In this document: piece by piece, positions 4,010 through 40,285 of the stretch
Position numbering within the stretch: position 1 is the first letter of the stretch
Layout: each line of letters starts with the position of its first letter
Assembly (NCBI RefSeq): GCF_000165465.1
Contig: NC_017455.1
Coordinates: 186,001 to 250,000, forward strand
From: Halanaerobium praevalens DSM 2228
Lineage (GTDB): Bacteria; Bacillota; Halanaerobiia; Halanaerobiales; Halanaerobiaceae
Reading direction: 5' to 3'
Length of the DNA stretch: 64,000 nucleotides
Position numbers and translations under genes: made by a program
Notes under the pieces: generated by a model
Seen by the model: the letters and a program-made list of their open reading frames with translations, nothing else
Databases searched by the model: none
What the model was told of the DNA's origin: nothing

Positions 4010-5203
4010 ATGAGTAAATCAATGGTAGGTAGACAGCCAATTTTAGATAAAAATGAAAAATTATTTGCTTATGAATTATTATTTAGATCAGAGCAGGGCA
4101 ATAAAATTATTGATGGAGAGCAGGCAACTTCTGAGGTGATAAGTAGTAGTTTAGAATCAATTGGACTTTTTAATTTAACTCAAAATAAGCCAGCTTTTAT
4201 TAACTTTACTGCTCCGATGATTAAAAATAAAATACCAGAAATATTAGCAAAAGAATCTATTTTTATTGAAATTTTAGAAACGGTAGTTGTTGATTCAGAC
4301 ATAATTGAAAGTTGTCAAGAACTAAAAGCAGAGGGTTATAAAATAGTATTAGATGATTTTGAATTTAAAGAAGAATGGATAGAGTTAATAAAAATTGCTG
4401 ATATAATAAAAATTGATTTTATTAATACAACTCCAGCCCAACGCAAAGAAATCTTGGCAGTCATTAGAAGCAAATATAATTCTCAAGTTAAATTTTTAGC
4501 AGAAAAAGTTGAAAATCATTCAGATTTAGAAGAAGCTAAAAAAGATAATTATGATTATTATCAAGGTTTTTATTTTACTAAACCAGATATAGTTTCAGGT
4601 AAAAAAGTAGAACCTTTTAGCTTAAGTTATAATAATATTATTAAAGAATTAAATAAAGAAAACCCTAATTTCAAAAAAATAGAAAAAATAATAAAACAAG
4701 ATCTTTCCATGACTTATAGTCTTTTAAGATTAATAAATTCTGCTGCTTATGGTTATGATATTAATTCAATTCGTCAGGGAATAGTTTTATTAGGTATTGA
4801 GCGTTTGAAAAAATGGTGTCTTTTATATTCTTTTAAGAAATTAAATAATCAAAAACCTGATCTATTATTAAAAACTGCTTTGATTAGAGCTTATTTTGCT
4901 GATTCTTTGAAAAAATATTTTGAGATTAAAGAAGATTTATTTGTTTTAGGTTTATTTTCTTTGATTAATGCTTATCTTGATCGTGATTTTGAAGATATTT
5001 TAGCTCAAATATCTCTTAAAACTGAATTTAAAGAGGCTTTAATTTCTAGAAAAGGTAAATTTGGATCTATTTTAGATATTATAGAAATCTATGAAAAATC
5101 AAATTGGAAAGAATTAAAAAATTATTCTTTCGATACAGCTTGTGTTTTTGCAGATTATTTAGAGGCTATAGAAAAGGGAGAGAGATTTTTTGAATTAACG
5201 TAA
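4010..5203 (+). CDS. EAL-HDOD (YuxH-like) signalling protein
   Basis: The N-terminal EAL-type domain (about 1-200) has ELLFR at 22-26, FINFT, FIEILE, LDDFEF and AEKVEN. Several metal-binding acids are kept, but the GTG of the usual DDFGTG loop is missing, so phosphodiesterase activity is uncertain. The C-terminal HDOD domain (about 205-390) has DLSMTYSLLRLINSAAYG and lacks HD catalytic residues. The length of 397 is typical of YuxH-type proteins. It is the second gene of the riboswitch-controlled operon. The family is known as a c-di-GMP effector or regulator; the partner here cannot be read from the sequence. Confidence 0.9.
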   Translation: MSKSMVGRQPILDKNEKLFAYELLFRSEQGNKIIDGEQATSEVISSSLESIGLFNLTQNKPAFINFTAPMIKNKIPEILAKESIFIEILETVVVDSDIIESCQELKAEGYKIVLDDFEFKEEWIELIKIADIIKIDFINTTPAQRKEILAVIRSKYNSQVKFLAEKVENHSDLEEAKKDNYDYYQGFYFTKPDIVSGKKVEPFSLSYNNIIKELNKENPNFKKIEKIIKQDLSMTYSLLRLINSAAYGYDINSIRQGIVLLGIERLKKWCLLYSFKKLNNQKPDLLLKTALIRAYFADSLKKYFEIKEDLFVLGLFSLINAYLDRDFEDILAQISLKTEFKEALISRKGKFGSILDIIEIYEKSNWKELKNYSFDTACVFADYLEAIEKGERFFELT

Positions 5204-5230
5204 AAAAACCGCCTCGGGAAAAGGCGGTTA
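5202..5230 (-). terminator. Minus-strand intrinsic terminator, possible end of a small RNA
   Basis: A stem pairing AACCGCCT with AAGGCGGTT is followed, read on the minus strand, by seven T. On the plus strand it is followed by AAAACAAGG, so it does not terminate the EAL-HDOD gene. No minus-strand protein gene precedes it. The next 100 bases on the minus side hold a second small hairpin (AGCTGT / ACAGCT near 5272-5291). A short untranslated RNA is possible. I see nothing else convincing between about 5335 and 5510. Confidence 0.5.
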
Positions 5231-5510
5231 AAACAAGGAGAAAAGTATCTATTACTTTTATCTATGCTTAAAGCTGTCCTCTGCAACAGCTCTTAAAAAG
5301 GGGATAACAAATTTCTATCTCTTTGCTACAATTAATATAATATCAGTGGATTATTAAAAAAACTTTAAACCAGCATTAGAATGAGATTAAAAAGAATAAA
5401 ATTTATTAATTAAAATTTTTGCAAGTAGAGCCTAGAATCTTTATTTATCAGTAATGATTACTAATTACTGATATAACAGGGATTAAAGGCTTATTTTTTT
5501 GAAAATAATC

Positions 5511-5539
5511 TTGACAATTATAATAAAGTTATATATAAT
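5511..5539 (+). promoter_or_regulatory. Consensus sigma-A promoter of the first feo operon
   Basis: TTGACA at 5511-5516, a 17-base spacer and TATAAT at 5534-5539 form a perfect consensus promoter. The Fur-like box at 5551-5567 lies just past the expected start site. Confidence 0.9.
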
Positions 5540-5550
5540 TTTAATTGAAG

Positions 5551-5567
5551 TTGAGAACCGTTTTCAA
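5551..5567 (+). promoter_or_regulatory. Fur-like box
   Basis: TTGAGAACCGTTTTCAA is an imperfect 17-bp palindrome beginning about five bases past the predicted transcription start. Almost the same site recurs at 13658-13674 before another iron-linked gene, and a relaxed version occurs at 9005-9021. Repression by an iron-loaded Fur protein, such as the one encoded at 15755, is inferred. Confidence 0.7.
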
Positions 5568-5593
5568 TTTGAATAAATTTTTTTAGCATCTTG

Positions 5594-5607
5594 TTAGGTA
5601 GTCCTAA
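5594..5607 (+). promoter_or_regulatory. DtxR-type operator TTAGG-N4-CCTAA
   Basis: TTAGGTAGTCCTAA lies in the leader of the DtxR-FeoA gene. The same TTAGG-N4-CCTAA form occurs twice before the second iron operon (8968-8981 and 9041-9056) and resembles known DtxR/IdeR operators. Autoregulation by the fusion regulator is likely. Confidence 0.7.
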
Positions 5608-5631
5608 AACAAATGCACTTGGGGGAAAAAA

Positions 5632-6315
5632 ATGAATATTAATTTAAGTTTATCAAAGTCAATGGAAGATTATTTGGAGACAATTTTAACTTTGATTGAA
5701 AATAAAGGGACAGCCAGAGTTACTGATATTGCTGCTTCACTTAATATAGCTGCCTCTTCTGTTAATGAAGGTATTCAAAAATTAAGTGAAAATGGTTTAG
5801 TAACTCAGCAAAAATATGGTCCAATAAAATTAACTAAAAAAGGTAAATTTGCAGCTGAAAAAGTTCACTGCACACATCAAATTTTAGCTATCTTTTTTAG
5901 TGAAATACTGGGAGTTGAGCCTGAGATAGCAGAAAAAGATGCTTGTAATTTGGAACATTGTTTAAGTAATCAAAGTTTAACTGCTATTATTGAAATGTTG
6001 ATTGAAAAAAATAAATTGCAAGAAGAAAATTGCTCACTTAAATTTTTAAGGGAGAAGGAGGCAAAAGAAAAAATGACCAAAACAGAAGCGTTAATGTTAG
6101 ATCAGATTAAGGTCGGAGCGAAAGTAAAAGTTCTTAAAATTAATTCTAAAGGGAAGTTAAAAAGAAAACTAATGGATATGGGTTTAAATAAAGGTGCTTT
6201 AATTGAAGTAAAAGGTAAGGCGCCAATGGGTGATCCAATTGAAGTTAAGGTCAGAGGATATAGCTTAAGTCTGCGTCAGGATGAAGCAGCCGAAATTATG
6301 GTGGAGGAGGTTTAA
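5632..6315 (+). CDS. DtxR-family metalloregulator fused to a FeoA domain
   Basis: A 227-residue cytoplasmic metal-dependent repressor. Residues 1-65 form a winged helix (SKSMEDYLETILTL, VTDIAASLNIAASSVNEGIQ). Residues 70-135 form the metal-binding and dimerisation part (EKVHCTHQIL, DACNLEHCLS). Residues 155-227 are a complete FeoA/SH3-like domain (LMDMGLNKGALIEVKG, PIEVKVRGYSLSLRQDEA). DtxR proteins often end in an SH3-like domain, but this one looks like a FeoA protein of the ferrous transporter. It heads an operon with feoA and feoB, follows a consensus promoter and carries a TTAGG-N4-CCTAA palindrome in its own leader. It is probably an iron sensor; manganese is an alternative ligand. Confidence 0.9.
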   Translation: MNINLSLSKSMEDYLETILTLIENKGTARVTDIAASLNIAASSVNEGIQKLSENGLVTQQKYGPIKLTKKGKFAAEKVHCTHQILAIFFSEILGVEPEIAEKDACNLEHCLSNQSLTAIIEMLIEKNKLQEENCSLKFLREKEAKEKMTKTEALMLDQIKVGAKVKVLKINSKGKLKRKLMDMGLNKGALIEVKGKAPMGDPIEVKVRGYSLSLRQDEAAEIMVEEV

Positions 6316-6320
6316 ATTTG

Positions 6321-6551
6321 ATGCCTTTAGCAATGTTAAGAGCAGGAGAAACAGCTTGTATTAAAGAAATTATTGGTGGGAGAACTGCCAAAGGTAAACT
6401 AAATGATTTAGGTTTTGTTAGTGGTAAATCAGTTAAAATTTATAGAAGTTCTGGTGGTCCTTTAATTGTGGGACTTGGAGATAATAGAGTGGCTTTGGGA
6501 AGAGGCATGGCACATAAAGTAATAGTAGATAACAAAGGGTGTGAAAATTAA
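6321..6551 (+). CDS. feoA: FeoA, ferrous iron transport accessory protein
   Basis: A small SH3-like protein of 76 residues that assists FeoB at the cytoplasmic membrane. The FeoA pattern is clear: LRAGETACIKEIIGG, LNDLGFVSGKSVKI and the closing VALGRGMAHKVIV. GGAGGAGG lies ten bases before the ATG at 6321; a TTG directly in front (6318) is also possible. Its last base is shared with the feoB start, so the two are probably translationally coupled. It adds a second FeoA module next to the one fused to the upstream regulator. Confidence 0.93.
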   Translation: MPLAMLRAGETACIKEIIGGRTAKGKLNDLGFVSGKSVKIYRSSGGPLIVGLGDNRVALGRGMAHKVIVDNKGCEN

Positions 6552-8599
6552 TGGCTTTAAATAAAAAAGAAAGACAAAATACAGAGCTTAAAGTTGCTTT
6601 AGCAGGTAATCCAAACTCTGGTAAGACAACAATGTTTAATGAGTTAACAGGTTCTAGACAGCATGTCGGAAACTGGCCTGGAGTAACAGTTGAAAAGAAA
6701 ACCGGACGTGCTTTTTACCAAGATTATTCGCTGGAAGTAATTGATCTTCCGGGTACATATTCTCTAGGTGCTTATTCGGAAGATGAAGTTGTAGCACGAG
6801 ATTTTTTAACAGCTGGTGATTATGATGTGGTCTTAAATATCATTAATTCAGCTAACTTAGACCGTAACTTATATTTCACAATTCAGCTTTTAGAAATGGG
6901 AGTTGACTTAATTGCTGTTTTAAATATGGCAGATGAGGCTGAGAAAAAAGGGATTAAAATTGATAAAAAGAAGCTAGGTCAAATGTTAGGGACTCCAGTT
7001 GTAGAAACAGTTGCCAGCAGAGGCCGCGGCATTAAAAGGCTTTTAGAGAAGACAATTGAGAATAGAAATTTAAGTGAAGCTTCACTTAAAATTGACTATG
7101 GAACTGAGGTTGAAGAACTGATTGCAGAAGTTATAGAATTATTAAAAGAAAATGATTTCTCACAGCAGCTAAATCAGCGTTGGGCAGCAGTTAAATTAAT
7201 TGAGCATGATCCAGAAGCAGTTAAATTATTGGAAAGAGAAATAGGTGCTTCTAAAGCAAAAAAAATAAAAAGCTTAATTGCAGAAAGAGAACTTAAAGCA
7301 GAAGATGATTTTGATAATATTATAATTAATAAAAAATATGAATTTATCAATAAAATTATAGAAGAAAGTGTAACAAGACCTGAAGTGGATCAAGAACCAG
7401 AAAATACTTCTGATAAAATTGATGCAGTAGTGACTAATAAATATTTAGGAATTCCAATTTTTATGGCAGTTATGTGGGCCATCTTTAAATTCACCTTTAC
7501 TTTAGGTGATCCATTGATTGGTTATATTGAATCTTTCTTTGAGCTGGCAGGAAGCTGGATTGGAGATTTACTCTTAGAAGCTGGAGTTGCGCCGTTACTA
7601 TCTTCTTTTGTAACTGATGGAATAATTGGTGGTGTTGGTTCTGTTTTAGTTTTCATTCCTAATATATTTTTATTATTTTTAGCAATAGGTATTTTAGAAG
7701 ATAGTGGTTATATGTCCAGAGCAGCTTATGTAATGGATAAGGTGATGAGTAAATTAGGTTTACATGGAAAATCATTTATTCCAATGATTGTCGGTTTTGG
7801 TTGTAATGTACCTGGAGTAATGGCAACTAGGACTTTAGATAGTAAGAGAGATAGGATAATTTCAATTTTGATTAATCCTTTAATGTCCTGTTCGGCTAGA
7901 TTACCTGTTTATGTAGTTTTTGCAGGAGCATTATTTGCTGATCATGCAAGTACAGTTGTTTTTTCTCTTTATATTTTAGGAATTGTAATGGCAGTTATTA
8001 TGGCTGGTATTTTTAATAAAATCTTATTTAAAGGTGAGCGTTCTCACTTTGTAATGGAGCTTCCTCCTTATAGAATTCCAACTTTAAAAGGTGTCTTTAT
8101 CCATATGTGGGAAAAAGTTGGTGCTTTTCTGAAAAAAGCTGGTACAATTATTTTCTCAGTTGTTGTTTTAATCTGGGTTTTAGCTAATTTACCATTAGGA
8201 GTAGAATATGCATCTGCTCAAAGTTTAATTGGACAGTTTGGTCAATTAGTAGCCCCTATCTTTGCTCCACTTGGCTTTGGCAGCTGGCAGGCAGCTTCTT
8301 CCCTTGTTTTTGGTATTTTAGCAAAAGAGGTTGTAGTTGGAACTCTAGGTGTTGTGTATGCAGCCGGTGAAGGTGGTTTAAGAGCTGCTCTTCAGGCTAA
8401 TTATTCACCGCTAGCAGCCTATTCATTTTTAACTATGGTTTTAATTTATACTCCCTGTATAGCTACTTTAGGGGCTATTAAGTCGGAAACTCAAAGTTGG
8501 AAGTGGCCTATAATTACAGCTTCATATCTGTTTGTCTTAGCTTGGATAGTTTCTTTTCTAATCTACCAAGGTGGAATACTGCTCGGTTTTGGAATCTAG
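6551..8599 (+). CDS. feoB: FeoB, GTP-dependent ferrous iron permease
   Basis: A full-length 682-residue ferrous iron transporter of the cytoplasmic membrane. The N-terminal G domain has GNPNSGKTT (19-27), a switch region GNWPGVTVEKKTG, DLPGTYSL and LNMAD. A helical GDI-like region follows, then the membrane part from about residue 300. That part holds the two Cys-containing gate motifs (GFGCNVPGVMATR and NPLMSCSARLPVY) and the helix AKEVVVGTLG. It overlaps feoA by one base. A hairpin and a Cys-rich small gene follow it. Confidence 0.97.
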   Translation: MALNKKERQNTELKVALAGNPNSGKTTMFNELTGSRQHVGNWPGVTVEKKTGRAFYQDYSLEVIDLPGTYSLGAYSEDEVVARDFLTAGDYDVVLNIINSANLDRNLYFTIQLLEMGVDLIAVLNMADEAEKKGIKIDKKKLGQMLGTPVVETVASRGRGIKRLLEKTIENRNLSEASLKIDYGTEVEELIAEVIELLKENDFSQQLNQRWAAVKLIEHDPEAVKLLEREIGASKAKKIKSLIAERELKAEDDFDNIIINKKYEFINKIIEESVTRPEVDQEPENTSDKIDAVVTNKYLGIPIFMAVMWAIFKFTFTLGDPLIGYIESFFELAGSWIGDLLLEAGVAPLLSSFVTDGIIGGVGSVLVFIPNIFLLFLAIGILEDSGYMSRAAYVMDKVMSKLGLHGKSFIPMIVGFGCNVPGVMATRTLDSKRDRIISILINPLMSCSARLPVYVVFAGALFADHASTVVFSLYILGIVMAVIMAGIFNKILFKGERSHFVMELPPYRIPTLKGVFIHMWEKVGAFLKKAGTIIFSVVVLIWVLANLPLGVEYASAQSLIGQFGQLVAPIFAPLGFGSWQAASSLVFGILAKEVVVGTLGVVYAAGEGGLRAALQANYSPLAAYSFLTMVLIYTPCIATLGAIKSETQSWKWPIITASYLFVLAWIVSFLIYQGGILLGFGI

Positions 8600-8606
8600 A
8601 ATCTAG

Positions 8607-8645
8607 AAGCAGTTAATTTGATTGAATTTAAATTAGCTGCTTTTA
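8607..8645 (+). terminator. Hairpin between feoB and the Cys-rich small gene
   Basis: AAGCAG and TAATTT pair with AAATTA and CTGCTT, followed by TTTT. It may be a leaky terminator or a processing and stabilising stem within the operon. Confidence 0.55.
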
Positions 8646-8682
8646 AAACTGAATTTATGCTTTCGGCTGAAGGAGGTTAATG

Positions 8683-8853
8683 ATGGAATATATATTTTTA
8701 GGAATTTTAGGTTTTGGTAGTCTTTATTATATTGGCAAAAAAGTTTATGGTGGGATTAAAGGGACAGATAGTCCTTGCGCAGGTTGTAGTGACAAGGGTT
8801 GTCCTATTGCAAGTGGTAAAGAATATGACTTTGATGAAATAGTTAAAGATTAA
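8683..8853 (+). CDS. FeoB-associated Cys-rich membrane peptide
   Basis: A 56-residue protein with one N-terminal membrane helix (residues 2-17, FLGILGFGSLYYIG) and a Cys cluster, PCAGCSDKGCP, at 31-41. This is the pattern of the FeoB-associated Cys-rich membrane family (pfam12669-like), which sits behind feoB in many anaerobes; its role is not settled. The second of two consecutive ATG codons is chosen because AGGAGG then lies six bases away. A homologous peptide ends the second feo operon (13483-13632). Confidence 0.85.
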   Translation: MEYIFLGILGFGSLYYIGKKVYGGIKGTDSPCAGCSDKGCPIASGKEYDFDEIVKD

Positions 8854-8869
8854 TTAACTAACTATAAAT

Positions 8870-8911
8870 ACTGATATCAGCCATTAGCTTTAATTTATGG
8901 CTGATATCAGT
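8870..8911. repeat. Long inverted repeat closing the first feo operon
   Basis: ACTGATATCAGCCAT pairs perfectly with ATGGCTGATATCAGT around a 12-base loop. There is no good T run on either strand, so it may act as an RNA-stabilising stem or a weak bidirectional terminator. Confidence 0.6.
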
Positions 8912-8928
8912 AAAAATATAAAAAACCC

Positions 8929-8957
8929 TTGCAAAAACTTGAGTGATCTGATACTAT
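8929..8957 (+). promoter_or_regulatory. Predicted promoter of the second feo operon
   Basis: TTGCAA, 17 bases, TACTAT. The expected start site falls at the edge of the DtxR-type palindrome at 8968, a position suited to repression. Confidence 0.55.
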
Positions 8958-8967
8958 ATTATTCAAG

Positions 8968-8981
8968 TTAGGTTAACCTAA
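8968..8981 (+). promoter_or_regulatory. DtxR-type operator, perfect palindrome
   Basis: TTAGGTTAACCTAA is a perfect 14-bp palindrome placed at the predicted transcription start of the second iron operon. It matches the TTAGG-N4-CCTAA form found before the DtxR-FeoA gene. Confidence 0.75.
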
Positions 8982-9004
8982 AAAAATTATTTTTTTGGCA
9001 GCCA

Positions 9005-9021
9005 TTGAGAATGAGTATCAA
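9005..9021 (+). promoter_or_regulatory. Fur-like box between two DtxR-type sites
   Basis: TTGAGAATGAGTATCAA has the TTGA-A/T-TCAA ends of the sites at 5551 and 13658. It lies between the DtxR-type palindromes at 8968 and 9041. Confidence 0.6.
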
Positions 9022-9040
9022 TCTCTTTTTTTAATCTCAA

Positions 9041-9056
9041 TTTAGGCTTGCCTAAA
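9041..9056 (+). promoter_or_regulatory. Second DtxR-type operator of the second feo operon
   Basis: TTTAGGCTTGCCTAAA is palindromic except for its two central bases and lies just before the ribosome binding site of the first gene. Confidence 0.7.
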
Positions 9057-9077
9057 AAAATTAGGAGGGAAATATTG

Positions 9078-9500
9078 ATGAATAAGAAAAAATTATCTAT
9101 TTTAATTACTTTAGTCTTTTTAATTGTTGTTTCACAGGCGGCTTTGGCACACACACCTATTTTATATGTAGAGGATTATCATGATGGCACAATTTATGTT
9201 CAGGGAGGCTTTTCTGATGGATCTTCAGCTTCTGGTACAGATATTATTTTAGTTACAGAGCAAGAATTTGCTGGTGATACTGAAGCTAGAGATCAGTATT
9301 TAGATAAAATTGGAGCTGAAAAACCTGCTGGTGAAGCAGAATTATTTGAAGAAAAATTAGTAATTTATAGAACTCAACTTGATGATTTTAGTGAAGCAGT
9401 AATCGAAAAACCGGCGGTAGATTATAAAGTTATTTTCGCTGCTGGCCCTGGTCACAATGTAATTGAAAAAGGACCTAAGTTAACAGATTCTGAACTTTAA
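9078..9500 (+). CDS. Small exported protein (NikL-like) of the split-feo operon
   Basis: A 140-residue protein with a Sec signal peptide (MNKKKLSILITLVFLIVVSQ, cleavage near AALA-HTP) and no lipobox. Mature residues begin HTPILYVEDYHDGTIYVQGG. The segments YVEDYHDGTIYVQGGFSDG and GTDIILV recall the small extracytoplasmic components (NikL type) of nickel and cobalt transporters, where an N-terminal His could bind metal. A role as periplasmic metal-handling partner of the split FeoB is inferred. The ATG is chosen because AGGAGG lies ten bases upstream; a TTG 30 bases earlier lies inside the operator. Confidence 0.65.
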   Translation: MNKKKLSILITLVFLIVVSQAALAHTPILYVEDYHDGTIYVQGGFSDGSSASGTDIILVTEQEFAGDTEARDQYLDKIGAEKPAGEAELFEEKLVIYRTQLDDFSEAVIEKPAVDYKVIFAAGPGHNVIEKGPKLTDSEL

Positions 9501-9556
9501 ATTTCAGCGGCAAAGATTAAAAAATAAAAATTAAAAAACAAAAGGAGAATGATCTA

Positions 9557-10360
9557 ATGAATTTTGAAATTAATAAATTAAAAAGAAAATTAGTTTTAGT
9601 AGCTGTTGTAATGGTAATGGTTGTTTCTTCAACAATGATGGCTTCAGCGCACTTTCAATTAATAATGCCGACAGATGATGTTTTAAGCTCTCAGGATGAA
9701 AAAGAAATTGATCTTGATTTAATCTTTACTCATCCAGGCGAAGCTTCTCACACAATGGAAATGGGAGAACCAGTGCAGTTTGGAGTTTATCATAAAGGAC
9801 GTAAAAAAGATCTTTTAGATAGTTTAGAAAAAACTACTTTTGATGGAGCAACTGCTTATGAAACTAGTTATCAAACTAGAGGTTTTGGTGACTTTGTTTT
9901 TTATCTGCAGCCAGCCCCTTATTGGGAAGAAATGGATGGTCTTTACATAAGTCAATATACTAAAGTAGTAGTAAATAGTATGGGTGCTCCCTCAGATTGG
10001 GATGCAGAACTTGGCTTAAAAGCTGAAATTGTACCTTTAACTAGACCTTATGGTCTTTGGGCTGGCAATGTATTCCAGGGAGTTGTCAAAAAAGATGGTC
10101 AACCAGTACCACATGCTGAAATAGAAGTTGAGCGTTTAAATGCTGAATCATATGCAGGAATTAATAATGCAGAATTTGAATTTCCAACTCCAGCTCATGC
10201 AACTCAGGTAATTAAAGCTGATGAAAATGGAGTCTTTACTTATGGCATTCCAAACTCAGGTTGGTGGGGTTTTGCAGCTTTAATGGAAGGTGAACAAATA
10301 AATGGAAAAGATCATGAAATTGGAGCAGTAATGTGGGTTAAAGCTCATGCTATAGACTAG
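9557..10360 (+). CDS. DUF4198-type exported protein, putative metal-binding partner
   Basis: A 267-residue protein with a Sec signal peptide (hydrophobic 12-31, cleavage near MASA-HFQL) and no lipobox. The mature N-terminus HFQLIMPTDDVL, followed by a beta-sandwich and a carboxypeptidase-regulatory-like segment (VVKKDGQPVPHAEIEVE), matches the DUF4198/NikK-like family. That family is usually found with nickel or cobalt ECF transporters. Here it precedes a split FeoB and lies under iron-type operators, so a periplasmic ferrous-iron role is inferred. The hairpin behind it may give it higher expression than the transporter. Confidence 0.75.
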   Translation: MNFEINKLKRKLVLVAVVMVMVVSSTMMASAHFQLIMPTDDVLSSQDEKEIDLDLIFTHPGEASHTMEMGEPVQFGVYHKGRKKDLLDSLEKTTFDGATAYETSYQTRGFGDFVFYLQPAPYWEEMDGLYISQYTKVVVNSMGAPSDWDAELGLKAEIVPLTRPYGLWAGNVFQGVVKKDGQPVPHAEIEVERLNAESYAGINNAEFEFPTPAHATQVIKADENGVFTYGIPNSGWWGFAALMEGEQINGKDHEIGAVMWVKAHAID

Positions 10361-10369
10361 GAAAAACAA

Positions 10370-10403
10370 AGACAGGTAGTTTAATTTAGCTGCCTGTCTC
10401 TTG
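10370..10403 (+). terminator. Attenuating hairpin between the DUF4198 gene and the split feoB gene
   Basis: A 10-bp stem, AGACAGGTAG with CTGCCTGTCT (one G-T pair), is followed by CTTGTTT. Partial termination here would give more binding protein than permease. Confidence 0.6.
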
Positions 10404-10430
10404 TTTACTCTAACAGGGAGAGGTAATTTT

Positions 10431-12272
10431 ATGCAAGAAGAATTTAAAAATATAGAAGATCTTTTAACTTTTGCTGCTGAAGAACAAAAAACTTTTAAAG
10501 CTAATAATTATTATGATTTAGAAAATCATTTTGCTCAGTCTTATTATACAGAAGCATCTAATTTAGCTGAGTCAGTTTTAAAAAAGCCAGAAGTTAAAAA
10601 AGAAAGTTTTACTAAAAAAGCTGATAGAATAGTTTTACATAGATTTTTTGGTCCACTGCTTGTTTTAGGAGTAATCTTTTTAATTTACCAATTAAGTATT
10701 GTTCAGGGCTATGAAATAACTAATTATACCTGGCCTTATTTATCTTCTTTAAAAGGTTTAATTGTTTCATTTTTACCTGGAGAAAATTTATTATTTGATC
10801 CTTTATTACGTTCTTTGGTAATTAGTGTTGTTGATGGTGTTTTAGCAATTTTAAATTATATTCCGATCTTTTTAATTTTATTTACTCTGATAGCTATTTT
10901 AGAAGATATCGGTTATATTCCCAGAGTAACTTTTATTATGGATCGAGTTGCACGGCGTTTTGGCTTACATGGTCAATCAGTTTTCCCTTTAGTTTTAAGT
11001 GGCTTATTTGTGGGCGGCTGTGCAGTGCCAGGAGTAATGGCTACAAGAGGGATTAAAGATGAGAAGGCAAGGTTGTCAACTATTTTAATTGCCCCCATAA
11101 TGAATTGTTTGGCTAAAACTCCACTTTATATTTTGCTGATTTCAATGTTTTTTACTGATCATCAAGGAAAAGCAATGTTTTTTATTGCTACTGTAAATAT
11201 TTTTATTGCTTTAGGTTTAAGTAAATTATTTTCACTAACAGTGCTTAAACACAAGCCTTCTTCACCTTTTGTGATGGAAATGCCTAGTTATCATTTGCCA
11301 ACGATCAAGGGGGTTTTAAGACGCAGTTTTGAGAGGTTATGGCTTTTTCTCAAAAAAATAACTACAGTAGTAGCTGTAGTTATGGTAATTGTTTTCTTTT
11401 TAATTAATTATCCAGGTATTAATAGTCAACAAACAAATGAATATCAGGCTAAAATTGATCAGGCTCAGAGTAAATTTTATGAGGGAATTAAAGCTAATCC
11501 AGAATATTATCAAGCTTTAAATAGTGACCAAAAACTAAGAAACTTTATTAATTATACTGCTAATTTTAATAGTGATAAGTTAAATTCAGGTGGAGAAAAA
11601 GCTCTAGCTGAAGTGCAGGAAAAATATAAAGAAAAAAATACTTTATTTTATAAAATAGTTAATCGTGGGCGTTATCAGGTTGATGGTCAGTGGCAGCGAG
11701 ATCGGAAGGCTGCTCAAGTTTTTAAACAATATAGATATTTTGATCGGACTCGAAAAACATTAAGGGCAGAGATCAATAATAAAAATCTAGAGGGCAGTGT
11801 TTTAGGAAGATTAGGTTATTATCTAGAGCCACTTACAACTTATGCTGGCTTTGATTGGAAAATAAATATGTCTTTAATCAGTTCTTTTGCAGCTAAAGAA
11901 AATAGTGTAGCAACTTTAGGGGCAATTTATAAAAGTCAAACCCCAAATGATAATTTAGCAAGTAGAATTTCAGATACTTCTGGCTGGACTGCACTCCATG
12001 CACTAGCGATGATGGTTTTTATGGCCTTATATCCACCTTGTATTCCAACAATGGTTGCAGTGAGGCAAGAAACTGGAAGCACCAAATGGATGCTGTTTGG
12101 ACTTTTATATCCAATATTGATGGGTTTTATTGCTTCAGTTTTAATCTTTAGTGGAGGTAATTATTTTAATTTATCTGGTTTAGAGACAATGTTTGCCTTT
12201 TATTTATTAGCAATTATTTTCATGTTAATTATGGCTTTTATTAAACCAAAAGAAATATATAATGAAGCTTAA
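10431..12272 (+). CDS. FeoB membrane domain without G domain (split FeoB)
   Basis: A 613-residue membrane protein with the FeoB channel part but no GTPase. A soluble N-terminus of about 65 residues replaces the G domain. Both gate motifs are kept: GGCAVPGVMATRG and APIMNCLAKTPLY, each with its Cys. A hydrophilic insert of about 125 residues (about 328-454) lies between two membrane helices, just before the helix SLISSFAAKENSVATLGAIY. Two feoA genes and a separate FeoB G domain follow in the same operon. The ATG at 10431 is chosen because GGGAGAGG lies before it; a TTG at 10401 lies just after the hairpin. Confidence 0.9.
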   Translation: MQEEFKNIEDLLTFAAEEQKTFKANNYYDLENHFAQSYYTEASNLAESVLKKPEVKKESFTKKADRIVLHRFFGPLLVLGVIFLIYQLSIVQGYEITNYTWPYLSSLKGLIVSFLPGENLLFDPLLRSLVISVVDGVLAILNYIPIFLILFTLIAILEDIGYIPRVTFIMDRVARRFGLHGQSVFPLVLSGLFVGGCAVPGVMATRGIKDEKARLSTILIAPIMNCLAKTPLYILLISMFFTDHQGKAMFFIATVNIFIALGLSKLFSLTVLKHKPSSPFVMEMPSYHLPTIKGVLRRSFERLWLFLKKITTVVAVVMVIVFFLINYPGINSQQTNEYQAKIDQAQSKFYEGIKANPEYYQALNSDQKLRNFINYTANFNSDKLNSGGEKALAEVQEKYKEKNTLFYKIVNRGRYQVDGQWQRDRKAAQVFKQYRYFDRTRKTLRAEINNKNLEGSVLGRLGYYLEPLTTYAGFDWKINMSLISSFAAKENSVATLGAIYKSQTPNDNLASRISDTSGWTALHALAMMVFMALYPPCIPTMVAVRQETGSTKWMLFGLLYPILMGFIASVLIFSGGNYFNLSGLETMFAFYLLAIIFMLIMAFIKPKEIYNEA

Positions 12273-12310
12273 ATTTGATAATTTAAAATAATAAATCGAG
12301 GTGAAAATAA

Positions 12311-12556
12311 ATGAGAGAAAATATAATTCCTTTAGGCCTGCTGCCCTCAGGCCAAAAGGCTAAAATTGTTGATAATCAAAGCTATGGTCGAGGTTTGTTA
12401 AGAAGATTAGAAGATCTTGGTTTAAATATTGGGACTGAAATTGAAGTTATTGCTGCTGGTAATCCAGGCCCTTTTTTACTAGCTATTCAAAATCAACAGG
12501 TTGCTCTGGGTCAGAATTTGGCAGCTAAAATAATGGTTAAAAATAAAATTTATTAA
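12311..12556 (+). CDS. FeoA-domain protein 1 of the split-feo operon
   Basis: An 81-residue FeoA/SH3-like protein: LPSGQKAKIVDN, LRRLEDLGLNIGTEIEVI and QQVALGQNLAAKIMV. It lies 38 bases behind the split FeoB membrane gene and 13 bases before a second feoA. It is quite different from the next one, so the two are probably not redundant. Confidence 0.88.
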   Translation: MRENIIPLGLLPSGQKAKIVDNQSYGRGLLRRLEDLGLNIGTEIEVIAAGNPGPFLLAIQNQQVALGQNLAAKIMVKNKIY

Positions 12557-12569
12557 AAGGAGCAAAAAA

Positions 12570-12806
12570 GTGGATAAAATAAGATTAAATAAATTAAAAC
12601 CAGGTGCTAAAGGGAAAATTGTTAATATAGCTCTTAAAGGAGCTTCTGGGAGACGTTTGATGGATTTGGGTTTTATTCCAGGCAGTGATTTTACTGTAGT
12701 TAGAAATGCTCCTTTAGTTGATCCAGTTGAATTAGAAATTAGAGATAATAATGTCAGTATTAGACATGATGAAGCAAAGTTTATTGAGGTGATTGTCAGT
12801 GAGTGA
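12570..12806 (+). CDS. FeoA-domain protein 2 of the split-feo operon
   Basis: A 78-residue FeoA protein: LKPGAKGKIVNI, GRRLMDLGFIPGSDFTVV, PVELEIRDNNVSIRHDEA. It is closer to the C-terminal FeoA domain of the DtxR fusion than to the preceding FeoA. The start is GTG with AAGGAG seven bases upstream. Its end overlaps the start of the G-domain gene, suggesting coupled translation. Confidence 0.9.
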   Translation: MDKIRLNKLKPGAKGKIVNIALKGASGRRLMDLGFIPGSDFTVVRNAPLVDPVELEIRDNNVSIRHDEAKFIEVIVSE

Positions 12807-13482
12807 AATAAATGTAGCAGTTGCAGGTCAGCCAAATTCAGGTAAGTCAACAATGTTTAATCTTTTAACAGGAGCCAGACAGTTTATAGCAAATTACCCT
12901 GGGGTGACAGTTGAAAAGAAAACTGGAGTTTTAAAAATTGATTCAGATAAATGTAATTTAATTGACTTGCCTGGTACTTATAGCTTAAGTTCTTATAGTT
13001 TAGAAGAAACAGTAGCCCGTGATTATTTACTTTCAGGTCAGGCAGATTTAATTTTAAATATTGTCGATGCTTCTAATTTTGAGAGAAGCCTGAATTTAAC
13101 TTTACAGTTATTGGAGATTGGTTTGCCAATGGTTATAGTTTTAAATATGATGGATATAGTTGAAAAAAGAGAAATTAAAATTGAAGCAGAAAAACTAAGT
13201 GAAAAATTGAATTGTCCTGTTGTGAAAGCAGTTGCTAAAAAGGCCCAAGGTAAAGAAAAAATTAAAGAAATGATTAAAGAAGTTTATTATCACAAAGAAA
13301 AGTATCAACCTAATCTTAGTCAAATTATCAATTATAGTCCAGAAATGGAAACAAAGATAGAAAAAATAGCTCAATTTTTTGCTCAAAAAAATGAGTTTAA
13401 AAATTATTCTAGTCGCTGGTTAGCAATTAGAATTTTAGCTGGAGATAAACATGTAGAAAATTTAATTAAAGAGGTGGTTTAA
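12799..13482 (+). CDS. Free-standing FeoB G domain (split FeoB GTPase)
   Basis: A 227-residue soluble GTPase matching only the cytoplasmic part of FeoB: GQPNSGKST (G1), NYPGVTVEKKTG (G2), DLPGTYSLSSYS (G3) and LNMMD (G4). A partial helical GDI region follows (SSRWLAIRILAGD), and then the protein stops. It presumably docks on the membrane protein encoded at 10431. GTG 12799 is preferred because GAGGTG lies eight bases before it; a TTG at 12793 in the same frame is too close. It overlaps feoA by eight bases. Confidence 0.92.
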   Translation: MSEINVAVAGQPNSGKSTMFNLLTGARQFIANYPGVTVEKKTGVLKIDSDKCNLIDLPGTYSLSSYSLEETVARDYLLSGQADLILNIVDASNFERSLNLTLQLLEIGLPMVIVLNMMDIVEKREIKIEAEKLSEKLNCPVVKAVAKKAQGKEKIKEMIKEVYYHKEKYQPNLSQIINYSPEMETKIEKIAQFFAQKNEFKNYSSRWLAIRILAGDKHVENLIKEVV

Positions 13483-13632
13483 ATGGATAGAATAATTGCA
13501 TTTGCAATTTTGGCAGCTAGCGTGTATTATATTGGCAGAAGGCTTTATCGCCAAGTATTTTTAGGTGAAGGCTGTTCAAGTTGTGACTGTGGTAGTGAAG
13601 ATAGCTGCTGCAGTTCCAAAACTAAAAAGTAA
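13483..13632 (+). CDS. FeoB-associated Cys-rich membrane peptide 2
   Basis: A 49-residue peptide with an N-terminal membrane helix (IIAFAILAASVYYIG) and a Cys cluster between 31 and 43 (CSSCDCGSEDSCC). It starts on the base after the stop codon of the G-domain gene. It belongs to the same family as the peptide at 8683-8853. Confidence 0.85.
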   Translation: MDRIIAFAILAASVYYIGRRLYRQVFLGEGCSSCDCGSEDSCCSSKTKK

Positions 13633-13657
13633 GAGAGTATTATTTTTTTAGATGAGA

Positions 13658-13674
13658 ATGAGAATCGTTTTCAA
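13658..13674 (+). promoter_or_regulatory. Fur-like box before the DUF2325 gene
   Basis: ATGAGAATCGTTTTCAA matches the box at 5551-5567 at 15 of 17 positions. Confidence 0.7.
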
Positions 13675-13711
13675 TTAAATATAAATTTAGAATTGGTAAA
13701 GGAGGCAAAAA

Positions 13712-14002
13712 ATGTCCTTAATGATAGTTGGAGCAGATAATCTTGGTTCAATCAAAAAAAATGTTAAAAATTTAGGTTTTAAAGAAATAATCCATCTTTC
13801 AGGCAGAAAAAAATCTAAATTTAGAAATTTCGAAATTCCTGTAAATACAGATTTTGTTTTAATTATGACGGATTATATAAATCATGCAGTTATGAAAAAA
13901 GTAAAAAGAGCAGCTAAAGAAAGTAATGTTAAAGTTATTTATGCCCGCCGTAGTTGGGCTTCTATTTATAAGAAATTAGAAAGAAGAGCTGTTTGTATTT
14001 AA
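13712..14002 (+). CDS. DUF2325 protein, iron-regulated
   Basis: A 96-residue cytoplasmic protein of the DUF2325 type: MSLMIVGADNLGSIKKNV at the start, a central VNTDFVLIMTDYINHAVM and the closing VIYARRSWASIYKKLER. Its biochemical role is not known to me. GGAGG precedes the ATG and a Fur-like box lies upstream, so iron control is likely. It sits between the split-feo operon and an HD-GYP gene. Confidence 0.8.
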   Translation: MSLMIVGADNLGSIKKNVKNLGFKEIIHLSGRKKSKFRNFEIPVNTDFVLIMTDYINHAVMKKVKRAAKESNVKVIYARRSWASIYKKLERRAVCI

Positions 14003-14056
14003 ATTGAGTTTTAAATAGATTATTAAAATATAGAAATCAAGGTGAGCAAATTAATT

Positions 14057-14764
14057 ATGTTCAAAATAAAGCAAAGTTATATTCCAGCTCAAATCAAAAC
14101 ACATCAGGTAATAGAAATTTTACTAAAAACTCTAGATGCTCGTGATAATAATACATTTGAGCATTCTTGGAGAGTAGCAGAAACGGCTACAATTATTGCT
14201 CGTGGTCTAAAATTAAAGGCAGATCAAATAGAAAAAGTTCATATTGCTGCCCATTTACATGATATTGGTAAGATTGGAGTTGCAGATAAAGTGTTAAATA
14301 AAACTGGGCGTTTAACTAAAGCAGAATTTGTTGAAATTCAAAAACATCCGCAAATTGCTTATCAAATTTTGAAAAAGACTCCAATCTTTGATTCAGTTTC
14401 TCCAATAGTTCTACACCACCATGAGCGTTTTGACGGCAGGGGTTATCCAACTGGACTTAAAGGGAAAGAAATACCACTTGCCGCTCGCATTATTGCGGTA
14501 GCAGATAGTTTTGATGCTATGACCTCTAATCGTAGTTATAGAAGAGCTAAAAGTTATAAATTTGCTTTAAAAGAAATTACAGAGCACAGTGGTCAGCAAT
14601 TTTGTCCTCAGGTTGTAAAAGTTTTTAAACATAAATTTGAATTAATTTTAAGTAGAATAGAATTTATAAATACTAAATTTGAAAAAAAATTTGTACCGGA
14701 GTTAGTTGGCCAAGAAGTAGAGCATCAAGAATTGCCGCATTCTCTTAAAGTGTACAATAAATAA
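14057..14764 (+). CDS. HD-GYP domain protein, putative c-di-GMP phosphodiesterase
   Basis: A 235-residue soluble protein consisting almost only of an HD-GYP domain. It shows HSWRVAE, HLHDIGKIGV, EIQKHP, LHHHERFDGRGYP, AVADSFDAMTS and the GQQFCP closing motif, so all usual metal and GYP residues are present. HD-GYP enzymes hydrolyse c-di-GMP to pGpG or GMP and use iron or manganese at the metal site, which fits its place in an iron cluster. The ATG at 14057 is preferred over a GTG at 14042 that overlaps the ribosome binding site AAGGTGAG. Confidence 0.9.
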   Translation: MFKIKQSYIPAQIKTHQVIEILLKTLDARDNNTFEHSWRVAETATIIARGLKLKADQIEKVHIAAHLHDIGKIGVADKVLNKTGRLTKAEFVEIQKHPQIAYQILKKTPIFDSVSPIVLHHHERFDGRGYPTGLKGKEIPLAARIIAVADSFDAMTSNRSYRRAKSYKFALKEITEHSGQQFCPQVVKVFKHKFELILSRIEFINTKFEKKFVPELVGQEVEHQELPHSLKVYNK

Positions 14765-14787
14765 AAATAAATGAAAGGAAGATTATA

Positions 14788-15282
14788 ATGGATAAAGTTG
14801 GAATTTTTTATGGCAGTACTACTGGAGATACTGAAACAATTGCAATGAGCCTTGCTTCTCAATTAAAAAATTATGATGTTGATGTTTATAATGTTAATTC
14901 TGCTGCTAAAGAGGATGTTGAAGCTTATGATAATTTAATTTTGGCTTCTTCAACTTGGGGCTTAGGTGAACTGCAATCTGATTGGATAGATTTTATAGAA
15001 GAGCTGAAAGAAGTAGATTTAAAAAACAAAAAAATTGCTTTAGTCGGAACTGGAGATCAAGATATGTATGCAGATACCTTTGTTGATGCAATTGGAATTA
15101 TTTATGAAGAATTAAAAGCTAGTGAAGCTGAATTTGTAGGTCATTATCCTTCTGATACTTATGATTTTAGTGATTCAAGAGCTTTAGTAGATGAAAAATT
15201 AATTGGTTTAGCAATTGATAATACAAATCAATCCGATTTAACTGAGACTAGAATTGAAGAATGGTGCCAGGGATTATTTTAA
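14788..15282 (+). CDS. Flavodoxin
   Basis: A 164-residue long-chain flavodoxin. The FMN phosphate loop is GSTTGDTE (9-16), STWGLGELQSDW (54-65) is the second FMN loop, and GTGDQDMYADTF (87-98) is the third. It is a soluble electron carrier that replaces ferredoxin when iron is short. Its position among iron uptake genes and directly before DUF2023 and fur supports this role. Confidence 0.95.
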   Translation: MDKVGIFYGSTTGDTETIAMSLASQLKNYDVDVYNVNSAAKEDVEAYDNLILASSTWGLGELQSDWIDFIEELKEVDLKNKKIALVGTGDQDMYADTFVDAIGIIYEELKASEAEFVGHYPSDTYDFSDSRALVDEKLIGLAIDNTNQSDLTETRIEEWCQGLF

Positions 15283-15304
15283 ATTAATAGATAACTAGAT
15301 GTTT

Positions 15305-15357
15305 AATCAATAACCCGTTTAGTTATTTTAAATTTAAATAACTGACGGGTTATTGAT
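15305..15357 (+). terminator. Long hairpin behind flavodoxin
   Basis: An outer stem, ATCAATAACCCGT with ACGGGTTATTGAT, continues into TTATTT with AAATAA, giving about 20 bp around a short AT loop. The T run after it is poor, so it may be a terminator or a structured element between flavodoxin and DUF2023. Confidence 0.6.
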
Positions 15358-15388
15358 AATTTAAGTAGAGGCGAAAGGGAGATGCAAA

Positions 15389-15727
15389 ATGAAAGTTTTT
15401 AACCATCATTTATATGAATATGAAAAAGGATTAAGAAATTTAATTTTACATACAACTAAAAGTAAACACCAAGATTTTATGGTTAGACGCCTGGAAAATA
15501 AGCAGATTGCTTATGTAATTTATCCTGTTTCAGCAAAAAAGATAAATATTTTTTTTGGAGATCAAAACTGTATCGAAGTAATAAAAAAAATTAATAAAGC
15601 TGATCTAAAAGCTTATACAGATGAAGAAGATTTTATTTTGGGGATCATGCTGGGTTATGATCGCTTAAAACAATGTGAGCGTTATTTGCAGAGAAAAGAT
15701 CAAAAAGCTGAATTAAAAGCAGTTTAG
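15389..15727 (+). CDS. DUF2023 family protein
   Basis: A 112-residue cytoplasmic protein. The opening MKVFNHHLYEYEKGLRNLIL and the closing MLGYDRLKQCERYL are signatures of the DUF2023 family; no catalytic role is known to me. It lies between flavodoxin and fur, so a role in flavodoxin function or the iron-sparing response is plausible but unproven. GGCGAAAGGGAG precedes the ATG. Confidence 0.8.
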   Translation: MKVFNHHLYEYEKGLRNLILHTTKSKHQDFMVRRLENKQIAYVIYPVSAKKINIFFGDQNCIEVIKKINKADLKAYTDEEDFILGIMLGYDRLKQCERYLQRKDQKAELKAV

Positions 15728-15754
15728 AAATTTTTTTAGGAAAGGTGATTAAAA

Positions 15755-16201
15755 TTGAATGAACTTCCAATTAAAAAAATGAAAAATCTTTTTTCTGAAT
15801 CGGGATACCATTTTACAGAGCAGAGAAGTTTTATTTGCCAAGAACTTTGGAAATCCAGAAAACATTATTTTACTAAAAAAGAGATTTTTGAATATCTAAA
15901 AAAAAGAACTGATAAACTTAGTTTAGCGACCGTTTATCGGGCTATTGATAGTTTAGAAAATTTAGGTATTTTAAGAAAAGCAATTATTAAAAATAGAGTT
16001 ATTAAATATAAAATCTGCTTTGATTTGGGTCAGGAAGTTCATGGTCATTTAATTTGTAAAAAGTGTAATGAGATAATAAAATTAGAAAGTAAAAATTTAA
16101 AAAATTTAATTTCTGAAGTCCAATCTGATTATAAATTTGAAATAGATAATCAGATTATTAATTTTAATGGCTGTTGTAATAAATGTCAGCAGAAAAATTA
16201 G
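15755..16201 (+). CDS. Fur-family metalloregulator
   Basis: A 148-residue dimeric repressor. The winged helix is at about 10-85 (FTEQRSFICQELWKS, LSLATVYRAIDSLENLGILRK). A dimerisation domain follows with a zinc site made by CKKC and CCNKC pairs. With its iron-transport neighbours it is most probably a ferric uptake regulator; PerR or Zur cannot be excluded from sequence alone. The TTG start has AGGAAAGGTG upstream. A decayed piece of a fur-like gene lies at about 22190-22310. Confidence 0.92.
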   Translation: MNELPIKKMKNLFSESGYHFTEQRSFICQELWKSRKHYFTKKEIFEYLKKRTDKLSLATVYRAIDSLENLGILRKAIIKNRVIKYKICFDLGQEVHGHLICKKCNEIIKLESKNLKNLISEVQSDYKFEIDNQIINFNGCCNKCQQKN

Positions 16202-16239
16202 TTTAAGTTTTCAGTATAAATTATGCAGGAGTGGGAAAA

Positions 16240-18288
16240 ATGTGGAGGAGCTTAAAATTTAGAATTTTAATATCTATTTTGATTTTAATGTTTTTATATT
16301 CAACAGCTTTATTTTTAGTTATGGATCAAATTAATACAGAAAAGATTGATTTAAGCTTAAATAGAAATTTAGAAATCGCTAGAATTAATAAAATTAGTAT
16401 CGAAAATCTTTTCAATAAAATAAGTGAATCAGTTATTCTGTTAAGCAGTCAAAATGTAGTTTATAATCAGCAGAGATTAGAATTGATCAAGAATAATCAT
16501 AGTTTTGTCGATAGTATTTATTATTTTGATAAAAATAGCAGCTATCAAATCAAAGGTGATTATCCTTTTGCTCAAGCAAAATTAAGTCAAATTTATAGTT
16601 CTCTCAAATCAAATCCAAAGGGGGTAGTTAAGTGGTATGGTTATCAAAATGAGCGCTATCTTGTTGGTGCTTCACTTGGTAATCAAGGAGCTTTATTTTT
16701 GACTATAGGTTTAAGCAATATTAATAATAATTTAGATAAATATATGCCTTATCAAAGTGGAGAAATTTTAATAGCTAATTCTCAATTTGAAATAATTTCT
16801 CAAAATGATGAAGTTAGCAGTCAAAAGCTGGGGACTAAATTAGCAGAAGGATTAAAAAATGAAGTGAAAAAAGTTCTTAATTCAAAATCAATAAATTTAA
16901 CAGGAAAAATAAATTTAAATCAAAATTCAGAAGTTGATTTAATAAGTTCAGCTTCAAAATTAAATGAGAGTTTAAAGCAAATCAAAAGTGAACAAAATAT
17001 AAAAGTTGAGAATGAAATACAAGGTAATTTTGAATTTAATAACAATTTATATTCCTATATTTTTATTCCCGAAGTCCAGACTATAGTTCTTGCTCAAGTT
17101 GCTAAAGCAGAAATTTATCAGAGTAAAAAAGATTCTAATAAATTATTTGCTTTGATTTTAATTAGTGCAACTTTAATAGTTTTAGTTATTATTTATTTAG
17201 CCTTAAAATATTTTTTCTTTGATGATTTGGATCAGATAATTATTAAAACCAAAGAAGTTAAAGCAGGTAACTATAATCTTTTTCAAGTAAAAAGAGATAA
17301 TAAAACTGAAATGGATAAATTGTATTTCAACTTTAATCAAATGATAATAAAATTACAGGATTTTACTCAAAATATAAAATTTAATTCTAAAAAAGTACAT
17401 AAAATTATTAATCAAGCAGCTCAAACTGCTTTTAATCTAAGTAATTTTTCAGAAGAAGTATCAGAATCTGTAGAAAAAATTGCTGCTGGAAATCAAAATC
17501 AATTAAGATCTATTGAAAATATTAATAATAATATTTTAAAAATGGAAACTGGTTTTGAAAAATTAACTAGTAAAAGTGAAATTGTAGCTCAAAATAATCA
17601 AGAATTAATTGCTACTGTAGCTTCTGGCAATCAAGTTGTAGGAATAGTTAATCAAGATATAGGTGAAATAAAAAGAGCAATTAATAAAGTGGCAGTAGAA
17701 ATCAGCTCTTTTGCGGAGATCTCAACTGAAATCAGTCATATTTTAGATTTAATTAATAATTTAGCTGAAGAAACCAATCTTTTAGCTTTAAATGCCTCCA
17801 TTGAAGCCGCCCGCGCTGGAGAAGCAGGGAGAGGATTTGCAGTTGTAGCTGCCAAAATCAGACAATTGGCTGAGGCTTCTAAAGATTCAGCAGCTGAAGT
17901 TCAAACTTTAGTCAAAGAAATTGATGCTAAAACTGATAGTACTCAGACTAAAATGAAAACTGGTTTGAAAACTATTGCTCAAGGAAAAGAAGCTGTAACT
18001 AAGATTAAAAATAACTTTGAAGAATTAAATTTAAAGGTCGATAAAAGTGATAATAGTTTAGAAATGATGTTAAATAAGATTGCTGAACTTAAAGATAATA
18101 ATCAAAAGTTATTACTAGGGATTAAGAAAAGTAAAGCTTTAGTTGAAAAAAATTATAATTTTTCGGAAGAAGTAGCAGCTTTAAGTGAGGAAGAAACCGC
18201 TTCAGTAGCTGAATTTAAAGCAGAAATTGAAGCCATGAAATCAGTTTCACTTTCTTTACAGTCAATCTTAAATTCTAGTAAAGAATAA
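16240..18288 (+). CDS. Methyl-accepting chemotaxis protein
   Basis: A 682-residue membrane chemoreceptor. One membrane helix lies near the N-terminus (about 8-28), and an extracytoplasmic sensor of roughly 270 residues follows. A second helix ([20 protein letters not shown]), a HAMP-like linker and the cytoplasmic coiled coil come next. The signalling tip reads [20 protein letters not shown]. The ATG at 16240 is chosen because AGGAG ends eight bases before it; a GTG at 16231 overlaps that site. The gene lies between fur and a siderophore importer, so iron-related taxis is a guess from position. Confidence 0.93.
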
Positions 18289-40102: not shown

Positions 40103-40285
40103 AATTATGGGCTTGATTTCAAAAAGTGAGTAATATTCTGATATTTGATAATTAAAGTAGCTGGAGTTGATATTTGCTTTTTAGCAGGCTTTAAAGGCCC
40201 TTGTTATTTTGAGCTAAATATATTACAATAAATTCAAGCTTAAAATGAAATTTAAATATTTAAGCAAAATTGAATAATATTAAGA

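Follow-up and report, generated by a model that had tools for sequence, protein, structure and literature searches.

The 64,000-nucleotide stretch of the genome of Halanaerobium praevalens DSM 2228 analysed here (the window) contains, at 9078-13482 on the plus strand, six genes encoding, in this order, a NikL-like protein, a DUF4198 protein, a FeoB permease without G domain, FeoA of type 1, FeoA of type 2 and a FeoB G protein. The genome is a single contig of 2,309,262 bases, and Halanaerobium salsuginis is among the relatives of the species. Each part of the operon is an open frame at the position listed in Table 1. An earlier note on this DNA had described a FeoB divided between separate permease and GTPase genes, with two feoA genes between them and two genes of exported proteins in front, and all of this was confirmed by Pfam and NCBIfam models; the normal FeoB that it placed upstream is the full-length protein of the ordinary feo operon, which is a paralogous system and the likely source of the shared regulator. 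The split operon probably encodes, as judged from its sequence, a second FeoB-type importer of divalent metal, most likely Fe2+, of a class with its own periplasmic metal-binding pair, and the proposal of the note that a second, differently built FeoB system has exported metal-binding partners is supported.

Composition of the split feo operon

The permease and the G protein are a split form of FeoB and not a standard single-chain FeoB, the cut-off of the full-length FeoB model TIGR00437 (315.65) being reached neither by the permease (248 bits) nor by the G protein (228 bits). Motifs G1, G3 and G4 of the G protein (GQPNSGKST, DLPG and NMMD) are intact. The cut falls inside the helical FeoB_Cyto domain, at an identical point in all split loci; in the alignment to unsplit relatives, the N-terminus of the permease is the second half of this domain, and little or nothing of the domain is lost at the cut. 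What the note had called a free G domain is indeed encoded by a separate gene, but is not a G domain alone, since the N-terminal half of the helical domain is part of it. Because the halves of this domain lie on two polypeptides, the G protein and the permease are predicted to meet by completing it.

Gate cysteines C197 (GGC), C226 (NC) and C537 (PPC), which were said to be intact, are invariant in 43 members of the FeoB class described below. The model of the permease is CNT-like (Z up to 15.7), in line with the name of the Gate domain, and a PDB sequence search with the permease profile gave no match. Both FeoA copies exceed the cut-off of PF04023, an SH3-like family, and their types are clearly unlike.

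The start of the NikL-like gene is best placed at ATG 9078 and not at TTG 9048, ATG 9078 being the first in-frame ATG, with a ribosome-binding-like GGAGGG upstream. The assignment of its product as NikL-like stands to the extent of a weak match to the NCBIfam NikL model NF058648 (E=2.5e-4, 21.1 bits, below the cut-off of 100), but the C-terminal membrane helix of true NikL is absent. Among NikL-type proteins, this helix was found in none of eight from split loci, 2/70 from unsplit Feo-linked loci and 7/8 from Nik-linked loci. The NikL-like protein is kept in all eight split loci, with the predicted mature N-terminal His and the GxGH motif retained; a CxC...C motif occurs in 37 of the 70 unsplit loci and is absent from the split clade. 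A PDB sequence search with the NikL-like protein gave no meaningful match.

In the DUF4198 protein, His1, His28 and Met36 of the predicted mature chain are conserved without exception in the 81 Feo- and Nik-linked sequences, while His34 is present in 66 of 69 Feo-linked sequences and is uncommon in NikK-linked ones, although the Halanaerobium NikK has it. The AlphaFold2 (AF2) model of this protein (predicted local distance difference test score, pLDDT, 91.9) resembles the Ni-bound structure 9gcb (Z 17.4) and Zcp (Z 20.3), and its residue 32, corresponding to His1, aligns with chain residue 1 of 9gcb. These matches came from profile and fold searches; a single-sequence PDB search gave nothing useful.

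A stable stem-loop was found in the gap between the DUF4198 and permease genes in 8/8 split loci (z -2.1 to -4.7), with unrelated sequences, and the other intergenic gaps tested in these loci contain no stem-loop of note. The element is possibly an attenuator or an mRNA stabiliser and, given its position after the genes of the exported proteins, is read as a means of making more carrier than permease.

Table 1. Features of the split feo operon, its promoter and the ordinary feo operon upstream (window coordinates)
Feature	Position	Strand	Details
DtxR-like palindrome TTAGGTAGTCCTAA	5594..5607	.	In front of the ordinary feo operon
Ordinary feo operon	5632..8599	+	DtxR-FeoA fusion regulator, FeoA, full FeoB (682 aa); upstream of split operon
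DtxR-like palindrome TTAGGTTAACCTAA	8968..8981	.	Pattern TTAGGNNNNCCTAA
Fur-like box TGAGAATGAGTATCA	9006..9020	+	One of 4 exact genome matches to TGANAATNANTATCA
Second DtxR-like palindrome TTAGGCTTGCCTAA	9042..9055	.	Pattern TTAGGNNNNCCTAA
NikL-like exported protein	9078..9500	+	Predicted mature N-terminus HTPILYVED; GPGH motif; no C-terminal membrane helix
DUF4198 exported protein (NikK-type, PF10670)	9557..10360	+	Pfam E=1.9e-58, 198.5 bits (cut-off 34); predicted mature N-terminus HFQ
Stem-loop, 12 pairs	10370..10399	+	Between exported-protein genes and permease gene
FeoB permease without G domain	10431..12272	+	Pfam Gate 3e-29, FeoB_C 3.5e-15, no FeoB_N; AF2 model pLDDT 86.7
Class insert, ~125 residues	11418..11795	+	Before second gate region; predicted helical with small beta hairpin; pLDDT mostly about 90
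FeoA type 1 (GRGLLRRLEDLGL ... PGPFLL)	12311..12556	+	PF04023 E=6.8e-17; type recurs in split loci
FeoA type 2 (GASGRRLMDLGFIPG ... LVDPVELEI)	12570..12806	+	PF04023 E=9.8e-19; type recurs in split and unsplit loci
Free FeoB G protein	12793..13482	+	FeoB_N (PF02421) 1.8e-64; FeoB_Cyto positions 1-46 of 90; C-terminus ...LAGDKHVENLIKEVV

The insert-bearing FeoB class and its split members

When 84,980 species were scanned with the permease profile, 80 loci were obtained, picked by FeoB sequence alone. Genes of the NikL and DUF4198 types are both present beside FeoB in 71 of these, and four of the nine exceptions lie at a contig end. In most of the loci, FeoB is full-length (about 830 residues) and carries the insert seen in the window protein, usually with FeoA in front and the NikL-like and DUF4198 genes behind or divergent; hosts of the unsplit form belong to Desulfobacterota, Pseudomonadota, Campylobacterota and Deferribacterota. 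A long branch with a support of 100 sets the class apart from canonical FeoB, and the unsplit members closest to the window system include loci L040 (FeoA1-FeoA2-FeoB) and L046 (FeoA1-FeoA2-FeoB-NikL-DUF4198).

An independent sample of 198 Desulfobacterota genomes contained 21 with a strong match. Among in-class loci of this sample with enough flank, DUF4198 was found in 14/14 and NikL in 15/16, and neither of the two testable FeoBs placed outside the class on the tree is accompanied by an exported-protein gene. No FeoB of the class was found in 298 random Pseudomonadota genomes, and the class is therefore rare there. The co-occurrence of the exported pair with split FeoB, expected in the earlier note, was borne out, both genes being present in every split locus examined, but the pair goes with the whole insert-bearing FeoB clade, which is mostly unsplit and is not defined by the split.

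The insert of about 125 residues before the gate helix, to which the note had drawn attention, is real: it has a length of 122-136 residues, between G329 and E466, in 43/43 class members, and the motif-to-motif spacing is about 188-199 residues in most class members, versus 83-91 in most canonical FeoBs. It is predicted to be a folded, mainly helical unit. With neither His nor Cys in the insert of the window permease, a role as contact surface is likelier than one in metal binding; docking of the exported proteins on the insert is a guess. FeoBs such as that of locus L007 have a long loop at the position of the insert, with no NikL or DUF4198 gene in about 1.4 kb of visible flank.

The full six-gene order recurs in H. 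salsuginis, a second family of Halanaerobiales, Firmicutes UBA5389 (a metagenome-assembled genome), Synergistaceae AS24 and Atribacteria AS21, these five further full loci spanning at least three phyla; in Cloacimonas SDB and Bacillota AS05, this order is followed until the contig ends. The split system was found in only 3/38 Halanaerobiales genomes. Split loci form one clade in the trees of DUF4198 (99/84), the permease (98, and 100/100 in the careful tree) and the G domain (91), and one clade with hosts in several phyla points to transfer between lineages. Omp85, indicative of an outer membrane, was found in 10/10 hosts tested, as a system dependent on a periplasm would require, versus 74/299 genomes in the sampled phylum, a comparison that is supportive only, since only three tested carriers fall inside the random sample. 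The proposed history is a fission within the unsplit FeoB-NikL-DUF4198 class, which existed before it, followed by spread from phylum to phylum. A one-step rotation of FeoA-FeoA-FeoB-NikL-DUF4198 was considered and rejected by reasoning: it does not reach the observed order, which takes two steps or a further move.

A collinear split was found in the Desulfobacterota sample at L188:3004-5605 (-), where separate, overlapping genes encode the G protein and the permease, the cut lies in the same domain, the order is FeoA1-FeoA2-G-permease-NikL-DUF4198, and GAGGAG is located seven bases before the ATG of the permease. This locus may represent a step before the rearrangement or an independent fission, a single origin of fission including L188 not being rejected by the approximately unbiased test (p-AU 0.47), and an assembly frameshift is a possible cause of the split.

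Four related FeoB genes (L181, L184, L194 and L198, from genomes G699, G671, G820 and G797) contain an in-frame TGA exactly at the first gate cysteine (VGGUAIPGV.AC). Genome G797 also carries a copy with Cys (L180), and L184 has a close relative with Cys (L185). A high-scoring tRNA for selenocysteine (tRNA-Sec) was found in 4/4 of these genomes, while the hairpins after the TGA codons, checked as selenocysteine insertion sequences (SECIS), show hardly any excess of folding stability over shuffled sequence (z -0.2 to -1.6). These FeoBs may use selenocysteine at the gate; no paper on a selenocysteine FeoB was found in the literature search.

Other genes were annotated near feo loci. Between both feo operons of the window, at 8683-8850, a protein of 56 residues is encoded that has a membrane helix at its N-terminus and the motif CAGCSDKGC; it resembles a FeoB-associated Cys-rich protein but scores below the Pfam detection limit. 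A gene of a Fur-family regulator (family assigned by reading) is located at 15755-16201, 2.3 kb downstream of the split operon. The genome also encodes a third, divergent FeoB of 620 residues (G000:C1:1479165-1479308, L154), near which lie a MATE-like gene and a gene for a small, Cys-rich membrane protein resembling RseC (families by reading only). Genes of DtxR-type iron-dependent repressors adjoin class operons in Synergistaceae and Desulfosarcina (L041:5200-5613, -; L052:2751-3323, +), and a TonB-dependent receptor gene adjoins that of a Helicobacter sp. (L109:3269-5668, -).

Promoter sites, metal identity and alternative readings

Two DtxR-like palindromes and one Fur-like box lie within 110 bases before the first gene of the split operon. 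The genome (2.31 Mb) has four sites of the pattern TTAGGNNNNCCTAA, of which one is located within a coding gene and the other three belong to the promoters of the two feo operons; since the reversed control of this pattern matched the genome at three sites, weight is given to the placement of the sites and not to their number. The promoter of the H. salsuginis copy contains a perfect Fur box TGATAATGATTATCA and a near-perfect DtxR-like site. Fur-like sites with z>3 were found in 15-19 of 62 class promoters, versus 0/12 NikK-linked promoters. No riboswitch was found near the split operon, the window scan having matched only a cobalamin riboswitch (40276-40477, 93 bits), a cyclic di-GMP-I (c-di-GMP-I) riboswitch (1732-1818) and a group II intron end (57915-57987). 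Genes of NikM, NikQ and NikO were not found beside the NikK/NikL-type genes within 5000-17000 of the window.

Iron is ranked first, with moderate confidence, as the most likely metal, the promoters favouring Fe2+ because DtxR- and Fur-like boxes are present in both feo promoters. Several observations weigh against this assignment. The solved DUF4198 protein of Ideonella binds Ni2+ at 18 nM by its N-terminal His and His18 (PMC12537917). The window DUF4198 protein shares 59% identity and its candidate ligands with the genome's own NikK (G000:C1:1692219-1692866, L146), which is encoded at about 1.69 Mb within a cluster for cobalamin synthesis, in the operon NikK-NikM-NikL-NikQ-NikO; other metals are kept under consideration because of this close kinship with a cobalt/nickel NikK. 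The DtxR-type sites could be Mn-responsive. NikR boxes showed no excess in class promoters, but the same scan found a site in only 1/12 nik control promoters, so the silence of NikR in the feo promoters is weak evidence.

A nickel/cobalt importer, in which the FeoB scaffold would be re-used for Ni2+/Co2+ and NikK and NikL would do their usual job, would fit the kinship with NikK and the Ideonella protein, the membership of DUF4198 and NikL in Ni/Co families (PMC545781, PMC2667541) and the position of the Halanaerobium NikK next to the split clade in the DUF4198 tree, weakly supported at 94/53. It is nevertheless unlikely: the DtxR/Fur-like boxes are common to the split and ordinary feo operons, FeoA genes are retained throughout, the gate cysteines are invariant, the host already owns a NikKMLQO-type transporter, and His34 marks Feo-linked DUF4198 proteins, the Halanaerobium NikK sharing it. 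Also unlikely is a broad-range or manganese/zinc importer of the FeoB type, whose periplasmic pair would set affinity and not metal identity. Models of both MntR and DtxR match the regulator at 5632 with scores below their cut-offs, Zcp, the nearest solved fold, was solved with Zn, Cu and Co, a ZinT-like gene adjoins the Atribacteria copy, and Porphyromonas FeoB2 is reportedly linked with Mn; Fur-like boxes in the promoter of the split operon and in many class promoters argue against such a range.

The exported proteins might also be independent metal scavengers or buffers that share only the promoter and never touch FeoB, a conceivable though unlikely arrangement. Their divergent transcription from feoAB in Vibrionaceae and Chromatiaceae, as well as the few class FeoBs with one or no exported-protein gene nearby, would agree with it, whereas the association follows membership of the FeoB class and not iron loci in general, and the adjacency is conserved over several phyla. 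Decay of a duplicated FeoB, suggested by the normal FeoB next door, is highly improbable, as the frames, G motifs and gate cysteines are intact and are conserved in lineages with 50-76% identity, and the cut is the same everywhere.

Proposed mechanism and comparison with known systems

For a second Fe2+ importer of the FeoB type, the following course is proposed. Iron shortage would lift DtxR/Fur repression at the sites observed at 8968-9055. The NikL-like and DUF4198 proteins would be exported, probably in excess of the permease owing to the stem-loop observed after their genes. Each of them, to judge by residues and fold in comparison with relatives, would bind metal via the mature N-terminal His and a second conserved His and pass the ion on to the pore of FeoB; the class-specific periplasmic insert may serve as a docking site. 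The ion would then cross the Cys-lined, CNT-like membrane part, for which the motifs and the predicted fold speak. The G protein, carrying the complementary half of the helical domain, would dock on the permease by completing it and, together with the two FeoA proteins, would control gating. A plausible, if tentative, extension to the class is a branch of FeoB with two dedicated periplasmic carriers handing over the ion at a class-specific periplasmic domain; in one sub-branch FeoB would be split within the helical domain, leaving the G protein as a regulator that can detach, and in another selenocysteine would stand in for the gate cysteine.

The class bears on two questions about FeoB that, to our knowledge, still await an answer: by what route Fe2+ comes to it in the periplasm, and in what way its G domain works the pore. 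For the former it supplies named periplasmic candidates, and for the latter the natural split lets the G protein and the permease be purified apart and mixed. No paper linking FeoB with DUF4198, COG5266 or NikL/NikK was found in the openly licensed literature. A survey of 2009 reported orphan NikK/NikL genes without an explaining neighbour (PMC2667541), and the FeoB class gives these genes a partner.

Canonical FeoAB (TIGR00437) has the same G domain, helical domain, membrane part of Gate and FeoB_C, gate cysteines and FeoA partners, but its FeoB is a single chain, mostly without the insert, and has no dedicated periplasmic proteins. In EfeUOB and other iron permeases with periplasmic partners, an inner-membrane permease is fed by periplasmic metal-binding proteins, all unrelated to those of the present system. 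The nickel/cobalt transporter NikKMLQO, of the energy-coupling factor (ECF) type, includes the same two exported families with N-terminal His, whereas here the pair serves a FeoB permease, NikM/Q/O are not nearby and the NikL-like protein is without the C-terminal helix. Similar to the window DUF4198 protein in fold are IsDUF4198 (PDB 9gcb, PMC12537917), which also has His1 and a second His, and Zcp (PDB 9mhj and relatives), but identity to them is only 15-18%, and Feo is absent from the IsDUF4198 paper and from the entry titles. Parts of Feo under separate promoters are also found in the divided feo loci of Helicobacter (PMC10353542), in which, however, feoA and feoB have moved apart and FeoB is whole. 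The FeoA-FeoB fusions of Bacteroides (PMC8980893) likewise represent variation in the joining of Feo parts, but by fusion, the opposite of the fission found here.

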